A stretch of 64,000 nt of DNA from Amycolatopsis benzoatilytica AK 16/65 (lineage in GTDB: Bacteria > Actinomycetota > Actinomycetes > Mycobacteriales > Pseudonocardiaceae). The position numbers were made by a program, and so were the translations under genes. The notes below the pieces were generated by a model. The model was not told the origin of the DNA. It saw only the letters and a program-made list of their open reading frames with translations, and did no database searches. Shown here piece by piece: positions 5,948 through 15,057 of this stretch. How positions within the stretch are numbered: position 1 is the first letter of the stretch; every line of letters starts with the position of its first letter. The stretch covers positions 2,835,195-2,899,194 of the forward strand of contig NZ_KB912942.1 in assembly GCF_000383915.1 (NCBI RefSeq), given 5' to 3'.

Positions 5948-6745
5948 TCAGCCGGTCACCCGTTCCCGCAAGTACGCCGCCGTCTGCGGATCGGCCGGGT
6001 AGAACGACTCGATCACCAGCTCCGCCACCGTCACGTCCAGCGGCGTCCCGAACGTGGCCACCGTGCTGAAGAAGGTGAGCTCGAGGTCCTCGTGCCGGTA
6101 CCGCAGCGGCACGAAAATGTCGCCCGGCCCCGGAATCTCCACCTCCGGCACCTCGTCCGCGCACGGATACTCGCGCAGCTCCGCCAGCAGCTCCGCGAGC
6201 CCGGCGTCGGCGGTCTGCTCGACCTGGCGGCGCAACCGGCCGAGCAGGTGCGCCCGCCACTCCCCCAGGTTCAGCACCCGCGGCGCCATTCCGCCCGGGT
6301 GCAGCGTCGCTCGCAGCACGTTCACCGGGCCGGTGAGCAACTCCGGGGCGATGCCTTCGGTCAGCACGCCCAGGCTGAGGTTCGCGTCCACCAGGTTCCA
6401 GCCGCGGTCGACCACCGCCGCCGGGTACGGGTCGTGGCCCGCCAGCAGGCGCCGGACGGCGTCGCGCACCGCGGTCATCTCCGGCGCGCCGATGTCCGAC
6501 TCGCCGTACGCGGGCGCGTATCCCGCGGCCAGCAGGAGCCGGTTGCGCTCGCGCAACGGGATGTCCAGGTGCTCGCCGAGGCGCAGCACCATGTCCCGGC
6601 TCGGGCGGGACCGGCCGGTCTCGACGAAGCTCAGGTGGCGGGTCGAGATGTCCGCCGAGATCGCCAGGTCGAGCTGGCTGATCCGGCGCCGGTCGCGCCA
6701 TTCCCGCAGCAGTTCGCCGACCGGAGCCTTCAGGGTGGTGGTCAC
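5948..6745 (-). CDS. XRE-family regulator with MmyB-like ligand-binding domain
   Basis: DNA-binding transcriptional regulator of 265 aa. An N-terminal helix-turn-helix (about residues 10-65, LREWRDRRRISQLDLA then TRHLSFVETGRSRPS) is followed by an MmyB-type ligand-binding region, a layout common in actinomycetes and thought to bind fatty-acid-like ligands. It lies 36 bp downstream of the nitroreductase on the same strand, so the pair may be co-transcribed. The target is unknown but is often the neighbouring oxidoreductase. Confidence 0.85.
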   Translation of the reverse strand: MTTTLKAPVGELLREWRDRRRISQLDLAISADISTRHLSFVETGRSRPSRDMVLRLGEHLDIPLRERNRLLLAAGYAPAYGESDIGAPEMTAVRDAVRRLLAGHDPYPAAVVDRGWNLVDANLSLGVLTEGIAPELLTGPVNVLRATLHPGGMAPRVLNLGEWRAHLLGRLRRQVEQTADAGLAELLAELREYPCADEVPEVEIPGPGDIFVPLRYRHEDLELTFFSTVATFGTPLDVTVAELVIESFYPADPQTAAYLRERVTG

Positions 6746-9183: not shown

Positions 9184-9798
9184 TCAGTCCGGATTCCCCC
9201 GCGGCAGCCAAGGAAGCACCGTCAACTGCGGCCATTGTGCTTGCCAGCGCCGGGACTTCGCCTGATACGAGCTCTGCGGCGCGTGCACCGGATTGGGCCG
9301 GACGACGAGGTTGAACATGTCCCCGAACCCGTGCGGCGCGTAGACACGCCACGCGCCGTCTCGAGTCTGCCGGATGCCGAGGCACGGCGTGGAAGACGGG
9401 AACGAGTCGATCGCCGCTTCGGTCGACTCGTAGGGCGCACATGGCACGCCGAAGCGCTCCTCGTACCAAAGGTGAACCCGCGCCTCATTGCGGATCTCGA
9501 CCGCCGCGGGCAAATCGCCGAACAGTTTGGCGCCAGCTTCGATGACCGAGTTTTCCGCTTCCCAGCTGAGGTCCGAGTCGTCGAAGTAGAAGAGGTCGTA
9601 GTCCTTGATCCCCTCGGCCGGCGGCCGTCCGGTCAGCACGTTCCACACCGTCTGGCAGAGGCAGCCCGCGGTCAGGTACCAGCCGGGCAGGTCGAACTCG
9701 GCCGCGCGGGCGAGGATCTCGGGCACCAGCCCGTTGCGCAGGACCGTGGCGCGGAAGACGTCCAGTTGTTCGGCGATCGGCAGCCGTCCGTAGTTCAT
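9184..9798 (-). CDS. nucleotidyltransferase-family protein (COG3575-like)
   Basis: Protein of 204 aa with the features of the uncharacterised COG3575/DUF925 nucleotidyltransferase-like family: YLTAGCLCQTVWN near residues 42-54, then KDYDLFYFDDSDLSWEAE, then EIRNEARVHLWYEERFG. The acidic DYDLFYFDD stretch is the probable metal-binding part of a minimal nucleotidyltransferase fold. Function and substrate are unknown. Confidence 0.8.
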   Translation of the reverse strand: MNYGRLPIAEQLDVFRATVLRNGLVPEILARAAEFDLPGWYLTAGCLCQTVWNVLTGRPPAEGIKDYDLFYFDDSDLSWEAENSVIEAGAKLFGDLPAAVEIRNEARVHLWYEERFGVPCAPYESTEAAIDSFPSSTPCLGIRQTRDGAWRVYAPHGFGDMFNLVVRPNPVHAPQSSYQAKSRRWQAQWPQLTVLPWLPRGNPD

Positions 9799-9910: not shown

Positions 9911-10291
9911 ATGACCACCGCCAGCACCGTTCCGGCCGCCGCCGACGTCGCCCGCCGCTACCTCGAAATCTGGAACGAGACGGACCCGCAGCAGCGTCGC
10001 AAGCTGGTCGCCGAGGTGTTCGCCCCCGGCGCGACGTACACCGACCCGCTCGGCACGGCCGTCGGGCAGGACGAGATCGACGGATTCATCGGCGGCGCGC
10101 AGGCGCAGTTCGCCGGGCTGGTCTTCAGCCTGCCCGCGGACCCGGACGCCCACCACGACCTGGCCCGCTTCCAGTGGCACCTGTCGGCCCCCGGAGCCGA
10201 CGAGCCGATCGCGATCGGGTTCGACGTCGTCGAACTGGCAGACGGCCGGATCGCGAAGGTGCACGGCTTCCTGGACAAGCTCCCGGGCTGA
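9911..10291 (+). CDS. SnoaL-like (NTF2-fold) protein
   Basis: Small protein of 126 aa with a SnoaL-like/NTF2 fold pattern: RYLEIWNETDPQQRR, ATYTDPLG and VFSLPADPDAHHDLARFQW. This fold is used by polyketide cyclases, isomerases and many proteins of unknown role. The ribosome binding site is strong (AAGGAGAA). It occupies ground where synteny with mycobacteria would place gcvP on the other strand. No operon partner. Confidence 0.85.
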   Translation: MTTASTVPAAADVARRYLEIWNETDPQQRRKLVAEVFAPGATYTDPLGTAVGQDEIDGFIGGAQAQFAGLVFSLPADPDAHHDLARFQWHLSAPGADEPIAIGFDVVELADGRIAKVHGFLDKLPG

Positions 10292-10665
10292 GCACCCCCT
10301 CGCCCAGGGACGGGGTCCCAGCACAGCCCTGTCCCCGGGTCGTCGCTTCCCGGCACGGCTATGCCCTGGCCGGGGTTCCCGGCAGGTCGCCGTCCTGCTC
10401 ACCTCCGGACTTGGCCGGACAGCGGGCCGGGGAAGGTCCTGCGCACCTGCGCACGGCCTTCCCTGCCCGCCGCGGCAGAAGTCCCGCTGCGCGTCCCGCC
10501 AGGATTCCGGCCCGCCACCGATTCGCCCGGCACAAGTCTTCGAGCACTGGTCGAGACTGAACGAGGTGCCCGCTTCGAGAACCAGCGCCGCCGGCGACCA
10601 ACGTGCCTCGGCGGCACGGGAGCCGGAATCCCTGGCGCAGCACCGAAAATCACCGAATACCCGGA
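10292..10665. other. gene-free stretch after the SnoaL-like gene
   Basis: About 370 bp with no convincing coding region on either strand. Open frames here give Arg/Gly/Pro-rich translations without family features. It is the segment that the minus-strand glycine riboswitch would transcribe into. I see no remnant of a glycine-metabolism enzyme in it. Confidence 0.5.
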
Positions 10666-10681
10666 TGTGGTCTTGACCACA
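10666..10681. promoter_or_regulatory. dre-like palindrome (third DasR-type site)
   Basis: TGTGGTCTTGACCACA has arms GTGGTC and GACCAC around a TT centre, close to the DasR dre consensus and the same class as the sites at 161-201. No gene starts close to it on either strand. Confidence 0.4.
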
Positions 10682-10725
10682 TCGAGAGGTCCACACCTGC
10701 CGGGAGGTCTGCATCTCGACCGGCC

Positions 10726-10750
10726 GTCCGGACCGCACAGCGGTCCGGAC
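10726..10750 (-). terminator. strong hairpin after the glycine riboswitch
   Basis: A perfect 10-bp stem (GTCCGGACCG with its complement) closes a 5-nt loop immediately downstream (minus strand) of the second glycine aptamer. It is well placed to be the expression platform of the riboswitch. There is no U-tract, as usual in high-GC actinomycetes. Confidence 0.5.
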
Positions 10751-10756
10751 CCTCCC

Positions 10757-10966
10757 CACTCTGTCCGTACCCCGCAGGGCGCCTGAGAGTTTCACCCGCA
10801 CGGATAGCCAGGTTTGCACCGTCGGCGGCATCGGCTGGTGGTCTCCGGCCGATGCGCTTTCCAGAGGCGTCTCGTCCACGCGGTCCAGGGTGCCTGAGAG
10901 GTTCCGGGGAGGATTTGCTCCTTCGGCGCCGCACCGGGGATACCGGCTCGGTCTCTCCCGCATGGG
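10757..10966 (-). promoter_or_regulatory. tandem glycine riboswitch
   Basis: On the minus strand the sequence shows both aptamers of a classical tandem glycine riboswitch. Aptamer 1 has GGGAGAG, then GCGCCGAAGGAGCAAA, then CCTCTCAGGC. Aptamer 2 has CCTCTGGAAAGC, GCCGACGGTGCAAA and ACTCTCAGGCGCC, closing with GACAGAG. This matches leaders of actinomycete gcv genes. Downstream there is a hairpin but no glycine cleavage gene, so the element appears orphaned. Identity is from recognition of the aptamer core; boundaries are approximate. Confidence 0.9.
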
Positions 10967-11112
10967 TTCATCGAACGCGCACTCAGCTTAGCGCGGACCA
11001 AGATCCGTCCGCTCGGCGGGATCGGGCACGCCCCGGATGTCTCACGCCAGCCGGTCCGCACCCACTGAGCCACTCCCGCCCAGCCGGTCCCGCTCCCGCC
11101 CAGCCGGTCCGT

Positions 11113-11694
11113 TCAGCCCGTCCGGCGGGCGTTGCGCCGCTGGGTCAGCTCGTCCGGGACCACCGATTCGACCAGACCGCCGTCCGCGCGCTCGGCCGGG
11201 AATTCGTGGATCGTCCCGCTGATCTCCTGCATCGCACCGCTCACCGCGATGCCGAACACGCCCTGGCCGCCTTGGAGCAGATCGACGATCTCCTCCGGCG
11301 AGGTGCATTCGTAGACCGTCGTGCCGTCGGAGAAGAGCGTGACCTTGGCCAGGTCCCGAACCCCGCGCACGCGCAGGTGGTCCACTGCCACCCGGATGTT
11401 CTGCAGTGACACCCCGGTGTCCAGCAGGCGCTTGACCACCTTCAGGACCAGGATGTCCTTGAACGAGTACAGCCGCTGCGAGCCCGAGCCGTGTGCGGTG
11501 CGGATGCTCGGCGCGACCAGCTTCGTGCGCGCCCAGTAATCCAGCTGCCGGTACGTGATGCCGGCGATCTGGCAGGCCGCCGGGCCCCGGTAGCCGACCA
11601 GTTCGTCGGGCAGCGAGGCGTCGGGGAACAGCTCGCCCTGCTCGCCGTCGGCGACATGTCCGGCAGCATTCTCCGGACTACCAGCCTCGACCAC
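11113..11694 (-). CDS. MerR-family regulator (Rv1830-like)
   Basis: MerR-type DNA-binding protein of 193 aa, homologous in layout to mycobacterial Rv1830. The HTH covers roughly residues 30-75 (GYRGPAACQIAGITYRQLDY, then STR-type recognition residues and RLYSFKDILVLKVV). The GTG at 11694 is chosen because GGGGAGG lies 6 nt upstream; the frame remains open further up without another good ribosome binding site. It belongs to the conserved gcvH-garA-ftsR-nuclease-merR block but is separated from the nuclease gene by an opposite-strand tetR. Confidence 0.85.
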   Translation of the reverse strand: MVEAGSPENAAGHVADGEQGELFPDASLPDELVGYRGPAACQIAGITYRQLDYWARTKLVAPSIRTAHGSGSQRLYSFKDILVLKVVKRLLDTGVSLQNIRVAVDHLRVRGVRDLAKVTLFSDGTTVYECTSPEEIVDLLQGGQGVFGIAVSGAMQEISGTIHEFPAERADGGLVESVVPDELTQRRNARRTG

Positions 11695-11926
11695 CGCAAG
11701 CCTCCCCTCGCCCGGCCTCGCGGCGGGCGTTCGACAGGCCGGTCGAGCCCAGGATCGGGATCGGCCGGGGAAAACTGCCACGAGCGCGCCGGGTCGGCGA
11801 ATCACATCGTGGCGATTTACCGCCTTTGACGGTAAGGCTGCACCGCGAGCCGGTCAACGCGACGCGCGGCGGGCCTCAAGCGCATGTCGAGGCTTTGGCC
11901 CGTTCGCCCTAACCGGTTGCGCGGAT

Positions 11927-14673: not shown

Positions 14674-15057
14674 TCAGCCCTTGATGAGGGCCTGGTACGC
14701 CTCGGCCTCGAGCAGCGCTTCGAGACCGGCGGGGTCGTCCAGCCGGATCTCCACGAGCCAGCCCTCGCCGTAGGGGTCGGAGTTGATGAGTTCGGGCGAA
14801 TCGGCCACCGCCGAGTTCACCGAGACGATCTCGCCGTCGACCGGCGCGAACAGCTCGGAGACGCTCTTCGTGGACTCCACCTCGCCGAAGACGTCCCCGG
14901 CCCCGACCTGCTTGCCGACCTCGGGCAGGTCGACGAAGACGACGTCGCCGAGCTGGTCCTGCGCGTACTCGGTGATGCCCACCCGCACGAGCGAGCCCTC
15001 GCGGGTGGCGACCCACTCGTGCTCCTCGGTGTAGCGCAGTTCTTCCGGAGTGGTCAA
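14674..15057 (-). CDS. gcvH: glycine cleavage system H protein
   Basis: Lipoyl carrier protein of the glycine cleavage complex, 127 aa, shuttling the aminomethyl group between P, T and L proteins. The lipoylation site is Lys64 in GEVESTKSVSEL, and the family start RYTEEHEWV is present. A TTG at 15057 is chosen: GGGGAGG precedes it and the length fits the family. It is followed by garA as in mycobacteria. No gcvP or gcvT is present in this window. Confidence 0.95.
   Translation of the reverse strand: MTTPEELRYTEEHEWVATREGSLVRVGITEYAQDQLGDVVFVDLPEVGKQVGAGDVFGEVESTKSVSELFAPVDGEIVSVNSAVADSPELINSDPYGEGWLVEIRLDDPAGLEALLEAEAYQALIKG

Follow-up and report, generated by a model that had tools for sequence, protein, structure and literature searches.

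Riboswitches that act in antisense to a gene are represented by the SAM riboswitch at ubiG-mccBA and by the B12 riboswitch of AspocR. The tandem glycine riboswitch (Rfam family RF00504) is found in Mycobacterium, Rhodococcus, Nocardia, Saccharothrix and Lentzea as the leader of gcvP, and lies there behind merR, either directly or somewhat further downstream. For the glycine class as a whole, PMC9943018, in the part considered here, counts 32 out of 3,185 riboswitches in antisense position, and its main text, within the same part, mentions neither Actinobacteria nor Amycolatopsis. In Listeria, according to the portion of PMC8079631 used, riboswitch RNAs act beyond the downstream gene, SreA on prfA and Rli55 on EutV. 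Actinobacteria are described, in the part of PMC6944388 considered, as preferring control at the level of translation, so that a short terminated RNA is not predicted by this preference alone. A literature search retrieved no paper joining the terms "glycine riboswitch" and "Amycolatopsis", and no title or beginning of an abstract dealing with the locus described below.

The analysed DNA (the window) is a stretch of 64,000 nucleotides from the genome of Amycolatopsis benzoatilytica AK 16/65, in which a glycine riboswitch without a glycine gene behind it had been predicted from the sequence. Such gcvP-less riboswitches are called orphans in the following, and those followed by gcvP are referred to as gcvP-type. 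The locus is made up of the following features:

14674-15042, minus strand: gcvH, glycine cleavage H protein (PF01597), head of a conserved gene string
11113-11805, minus strand: merR, MerR-family gene (PF13411), upstream neighbour
10990-10985, minus strand: -10-like element TAAGCT (TAnnnT upstream of aptamer 1), presumed promoter of the riboswitch itself
10970-10871, minus strand: tandem glycine riboswitch, aptamer 1 (RF00504, 59.8 bits)
10875-10756, minus strand: tandem glycine riboswitch, aptamer 2 (covariance model R1, 84.2 bits)
10750-10726, minus strand: terminator-like hairpin of 11 bp (3-nt loop), immediately behind aptamer 2; lacks a T-run
10717-10686, minus strand: imperfect inverted repeat, degenerate here; each of the eight closest relatives aligned has it with perfect 12-bp arms
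10683-10664, no strand assigned: inverted repeat, two perfect 9-nt arms separated by 2 nt, GATGTGGTC-TT-GACCACATC
9911-10291, plus strand: SnoaL-like gene (SnoaL_2, PF12680, 44.3 bits), convergent
9184-9798, same strand as the riboswitch: nucleotidyltransferase gene (PF06042)
5948-6745, minus strand: MmyB-type (MLTR_LBD) regulator gene (PF17765), 4.0 kb beyond aptamer 2

The original prediction of a tandem riboswitch on the minus strand was borne out by covariance searches of the whole 64 kb window. Aptamer 1 matches RF00504, whose curated cut-off is 32 bits, with an E-value of 7.6e-10. Aptamer 2 has no RF00504 match in the window, even at E<=5, and was recognised by model R1, a covariance model based on aptamer 2 of 23 loci from genera other than Amycolatopsis (E 3e-18, the E-values of this model being rough); with R1, a second homologous aptamer is found directly behind the first, as in the tandem form. 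Judged by these models, the element belongs to the tandem glycine riboswitches. Its core letters are kept, and the orphan is predicted to bind glycine. The riboswitch begins 142 nt downstream of the merR stop codon, on the same minus strand, and its P1 helix has, in the window, an A-U pair where 21 of the 23 other orphans have G-C. In 24 out of 24 orphan loci a TAnnnT motif precedes the GGGAGAG of aptamer 1 by 31-32 nt, and in all 53 gcvP-type loci one lies within 18-43 nt upstream of it. A simple scan of window positions 10200-11200 revealed neither a sigma-70 consensus promoter pair nor a T-run terminator. Matches to PtaRNA1, FAM13A-AS1_2 and RT-19, obtained from Rfam at relaxed E-values, were far under the respective cut-offs and were dropped. 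Elsewhere in the genome of the window a third, sub-threshold RF00504 match of 23.5 bits is present (G000:C1:4969671-4969743), and the genomes of several relatives hold three to four RF00504 matches each.

Upstream of the riboswitch, the order gcvH-garA-ftsR-nuclease-merR is kept as predicted, with a plus-strand gene, TetR-like by eye, intervening between the nuclease gene and merR. Pfam confirms GCV_H, the bifunctional nuclease and two MerR-type genes, while garA and ftsR are names which we assign, presumably correctly, by place in the gene string. The merR gene is present in all 80 Amycolatopsis genomes analysed. Downstream, a search at E<=1e-5 over the 8 kb that follow merR at the window locus detected no gcvP remnant. 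What comes next, after 372 nt without an assigned gene behind the last inverted repeat, is the convergent SnoaL_2 gene, in agreement with the predicted lack of a glycine gene. The two same-strand downstream genes run against Pfam are the nucleotidyltransferase and the MmyB-type regulator; the glycine gene usual for the class is not among them. The bounds first proposed for the element, 10666-11112, are reasonable, as they start at the merR stop and their other limit is no more than 2 nt away from where the last inverted repeat ends. The nucleotidyltransferase stretch of the window, which its eight closest relatives share, sits between SnoaL and the MmyB-type regulator; these two genes are direct neighbours in many other loci of the genus.

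The genome to which the window belongs (8.70 Mb, one contig) contains a single gcvP, with domain matches at 5,047,434-5,045,305, adjoining gcvT. Immediately in front of it is a separate riboswitch, which gives one RF00504 match and, for aptamer 2, a match of 74 bits, and in which two aptamer motifs are 101 nt apart. Of the 80 Amycolatopsis genomes, 53 show two matches to gcvP at E<=1e-100, and the other 27 a single one. Practically all the former, 52 out of 53, have a gcvP directly behind the merR-side riboswitch; in the remaining one, G043, the contig ends 354 nt after merR. None of the 27 single-gcvP genomes, that of the window included, has gcvP at this place. As to the duplication itself, two gcvP genes are kept in 53 of the 80 genomes, and the one cross-genome comparison, between the merR-side gcvP of G074 and the gcvP of the window's genome, gave 70% identity.

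A scan of named genomes, based on the best 80 of at least 538 MerR relatives (79 evaluable loci, L244 being incomplete), found gcvP behind the riboswitch in 75 of the 79, namely in 72 of 73 loci of other actinobacterial genera and in three of six Amycolatopsis loci; at least two aptamer motifs are present in 72 of the 75 gcvP-bearing loci, and one in the other three. Four loci of this set (best 80 of at least 538) are without gcvP: those of A. deserti and A. thermalba keep both motifs, and those of A. antarctica and Prauserella endophytica have no motif. As judged from gene content and order, gcvP behind this riboswitch is the ancestral condition, since it is found in 72 of 73 other-genus loci (best 80 of at least 538), and the copy has been lost here. 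Many gcvP-type loci feature gcvP, then a convergent SnoaL, then the MmyB-type regulator, which indicates that gcvP was deleted from between the riboswitch and SnoaL. Of the two possibilities initially offered, that gcvP was either lost or moved, the first is borne out for this locus by the single gcvP of 27 out of 80 genomes and by the other-genus loci. The second is disfavoured, because 53 of the 80 genomes have two copies and the remaining one is the gcvT-locus gene with a riboswitch of its own.

On a tree built from five linked genes (962 aligned codons, 80 genomes, gcvH present in 78 of them), the gcvP-less genomes, 27 in number, occupy six positions: a clade of 17, including the window (support 0.997), a clade of five (0.827), the pair G027/G036, and the single genomes G058, G006 and G005. 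The number of losses may be smaller than six, because the node separating G005 from the pair G027/G036 has a support of 0.07, and that placing G058 a support of 0.61. Between the two clades and the pair stand gcvP-bearing genomes, the separating nodes having supports of at least 0.98.

Both aptamers are intact in 24 of the 27 gcvP-less loci, retention of aptamer 1 being scored by RF00504 matches beside merR, which in one separate search were obtained for 7 of 10 loci. Aptamer 2 gives matches of at least 79.8 bits in 23 of 26 gcvP-less loci, in addition to the window. Nothing is left of the riboswitch in G005 and G073, the latter being absent from the first alignment for want of a riboswitch motif and lacking a SnoaL match within 8 kb downstream of merR. 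In G021, the sister genome of G073, the second aptamer is broken, with 25 of 91 core letters changed and no RF00504 match over the cut-off. Decay is therefore possible after release, as these sisters have broken or lost their riboswitch; similarly, its absence from G005, G073 and, by motif, Prauserella endophytica, together with the half-broken copy of G021, makes the riboswitch dispensable in some lineages. Loci L121 and L122, from G073 and G021, with a lost and a half-broken riboswitch, constitute a natural control for release from selection.

The conservation of the intact orphans was evaluated on a core of 91 columns, defined on 68 riboswitches from genera other than Amycolatopsis (73 loci, L177-L249, among the best 80 of at least 538 relatives; five were left outside, showing no motif pair with the expected spacing and end). 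This other-genus core was used instead of one defined on the gcvP-type copies, which would be biased toward them. Orphans and gcvP leaders have the same two aptamers, with 0-2 mismatches per 91 core letters in the 24 intact orphans; they differ in that no glycine gene follows the orphan and that the stretch after aptamer 2 is unconserved. Core changes were compared with those at four-fold sites of the neighbouring genes, in groups comprising all the intact orphans but the single ones of G006 and G058, hence 22 of 24. The clade of the window, with 15 intact orphans, has 5 core changes versus 274 at 268 four-fold sites (ratio 0.054), the 5-genome clade 2 versus 166 (ratio 0.035), and the pair G027/G036 none versus 53. 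At the four-fold rate 93, 56 and 18 core changes would be expected, respectively (Poisson P 2e-33, 6e-22 and 1.5e-8). Per site, the 15-genome clade accumulated about one change at four-fold positions and 0.055 in the core; the comparison is conservative, because parsimony undercounts fast sites. Five gcvP-type groups show core/four-fold ratios of 0-0.028, and the two larger orphan clades (0.054 and 0.035) may be under somewhat weaker selection, of the same order as in gcvP-type loci. On these rates, the orphan core is under strong purifying selection after the loss of gcvP, and the suggestion that the RNA does something else now has gained support.

Pairing is preserved as well: in the 24-orphan alignment, 98.9% of 1197 pair cells are standard, and double changes occur in 9 of 50 pairs, versus 5.1 in shuffles (none of 500 reaching 9) and at most 3 in slid controls, figures to be read bearing in mind that the structure was derived from the same alignment and that kinship inflates such counts. 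Further pair types showed no excess (21, versus 21.1 in shuffles). For the window, copying from the genome's own gcvP riboswitch was rejected as an explanation for the conservation, since the orphan is identical to that riboswitch at 127 of 188 positions, versus 188-197 of 215-216 for four orphans of the same clade; identity with the orphan of G072 is 166 of 214.

The strong downstream hairpin of the original prediction is present as the 11-bp stem listed above, and the 55 nt from the aptamer-2 tail on fold with -31.7 kcal/mol (z -3.8 versus 100 shuffles). Across lineages, however, a strong hairpin (z < -2) is found behind aptamer 2 in just 9 of 24 orphan loci, versus 15 of 52 gcvP-type ones, so that a fixed RNA end, and with it a conserved hairpin or terminator as common 3' end of the orphans, is not supported. 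The inverted repeats between riboswitch and SnoaL are present in the window and its eight closest relatives. The repeat at 10664-10683 (core TGTGGTCTTGACCACA), which in our opinion resembles a GntR/DasR-type operator or a two-way terminator, is common to the eight closest relatives and absent from G020; its 16-nt core has a single copy each in the window's genome (G000) and in G048, and none in G020. A dispersed repeat or a regulator site was considered as the origin of the inverted repeats and set aside. The sequence GGTCNNGACC has 7 copies in the window, versus a mean of 3.1 in shuffles, and the 12-mer arm has 3, 5 and 4 copies in G000, G048 and G055, lying at this locus only in G048. The G-rich tail of P1 has, in the predicted folds, four or more of its first 6 letters paired in 16 of 24 orphans, versus 46 of 52 gcvP-type riboswitches. 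A loss of switch-like tail pairing in the orphans amounts, on these counts, to a tendency, and the pairing that persists in the modelled folds would suit a remaining cis role.

What lies behind the orphan is not constant. Of the 24 intact orphan loci, 21 have a convergent SnoaL a short way beyond aptamer 2, and the MmyB-type regulator is the next conserved same-strand gene in most orphan loci; in G027 and G036 this regulator follows aptamer 2 by about 77 nt, on the same strand (as identified by Pfam for the G027 copy), and G006 has neither gene nearby. SnoaL was therefore rejected as a constant partner, there being no adjacent SnoaL in these three genomes. The downstream neighbour thus varies across orphan lineages, while the -10-like element and the two aptamers are constant.

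This variation bears on the main alternative, antisense control of SnoaL, in which glycine would gate transcription starting at about 10978, to stop at the hairpins or to run on through the 3' half of SnoaL, lowering its expression. Like the known antisense-acting riboswitches, the orphan lies 3' of, and opposite to, a gene; the kind is a described one (32 antisense versus 3,153 sense glycine cases in the part of PMC9943018 considered), SnoaL has the appropriate position in 21 of the 24 intact loci, and inverted repeats separate the two in the window, as they do in its eight closest relatives. Unlike in the known cases, the adjacent gene is inconstant across lineages and the antisense transcript is hypothetical; by a same-neighbour test, which is our own and not part of the published definition, SnoaL adjoins the orphan in those 21 of 24 loci rather than in all. 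Moreover, many gcvP-type loci already have SnoaL behind gcvP, as a neighbour of long standing. G021 and Prauserella have kept it in the absence of an intact riboswitch, and the orphans persisting in G006, G027 and G036 have no SnoaL next to them. We know of no link of SnoaL to glycine. Antisense control, one of the roles originally suggested for the RNA, is not needed to account for the orphan; it may operate in the lineages having SnoaL, and we regard it as unlikely.

Alternatively, the orphan could be a relic, i.e. a functionless leader left by gene loss and slowly decaying. The absence of gcvP, and the decay or loss seen in the sisters G021 and G073 and in G005, are in keeping with this idea, which is strongly disfavoured by the substitution rates of the 15-genome clade; the preserved covariation and -10-like element also argue against it, and many separate recent losses would be needed. 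We hold it to be improbable. A new cis target, the riboswitch leading into the MmyB-type regulator through or around SnoaL, would fit G027 and G036, where the two are close, the presence of the regulator downstream on the same strand in 24 out of 24 intact orphans (0.4 to 6 kb behind merR), and the platform pairing that persists. Nevertheless, the distance from merR to the regulator is 2.5-4.9 kb in G020, in the window and in the eight relatives closest to it, and 6 kb in G006, an opposite-strand SnoaL intervenes elsewhere than in G027 and G036, and G005 has the regulator and no riboswitch, which makes this solution very improbable. An assembly error hiding a gcvP that really follows, put forward with the prediction as a reason for doubt, deserves practically no credit: the genome is a single contig, the locus is arranged alike in A. 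deserti and A. thermalba, and the 27 of 80 genomes with a single gcvP, left at the gcvT locus and never found here, indicate gene loss rather than mis-assembly; these independent genomes exclude it.

In the explanation we prefer, which is rather more probable than its negation given the sequence evidence, the tandem glycine riboswitch has outlived gcvP and is likely to be a stand-alone glycine-sensing RNA kept for its own sake. A self-contained sensor of this kind is favoured, although not compellingly, by a neighbour that varies beside a -10-like element and aptamers that do not. As the comparison of loci shows, the element originally served as the leader of gcvP behind merR; a deletion then removed the gcvP that separated it from the convergent SnoaL, and the aptamers, helices and -10-like element have been kept since. 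Its own promoter would still give a short RNA, of roughly 220-315 nt, which would bind glycine and end in the inverted repeats before SnoaL. By analogy with Listeria SreA and Rli55, whose RNAs, in the part of PMC8079631 used, have a role beyond their own downstream gene, this RNA would most likely act away from its locus, perhaps through a side activity already present in the gcvP leader. The analogy has limits, as SreA, in the same source, keeps its cis operon, ligand, phylum and target differ, and trans action of the orphan is something we infer. If the orphan is functional, a trans-acting or self-contained RNA has about an even chance; a glycine-gated antisense transcript reading into SnoaL is a distinctly weaker candidate, and other cis roles are weaker still. 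The fullest version, a free-standing, promoter-bearing sensor RNA without a cis target, selected in three Amycolatopsis lineages and acting in trans on glycine or one-carbon genes, is put forward here as tentative.

Riboswitches are commonly understood as switches placed ahead of genes. The loss of the gene, with the switch kept in related genomes, amounts to a natural experiment, which parts the value of the sensor from that of the gene. The orphan makes a trans or antisense action of a glycine riboswitch RNA directly testable, and suggests caution in naming the target of a riboswitch from whatever gene adjoins it. Should a free-standing sensor RNA acting in trans exist here, it would suggest that a second role, in trans, is already present in the ordinary gcvP leader.
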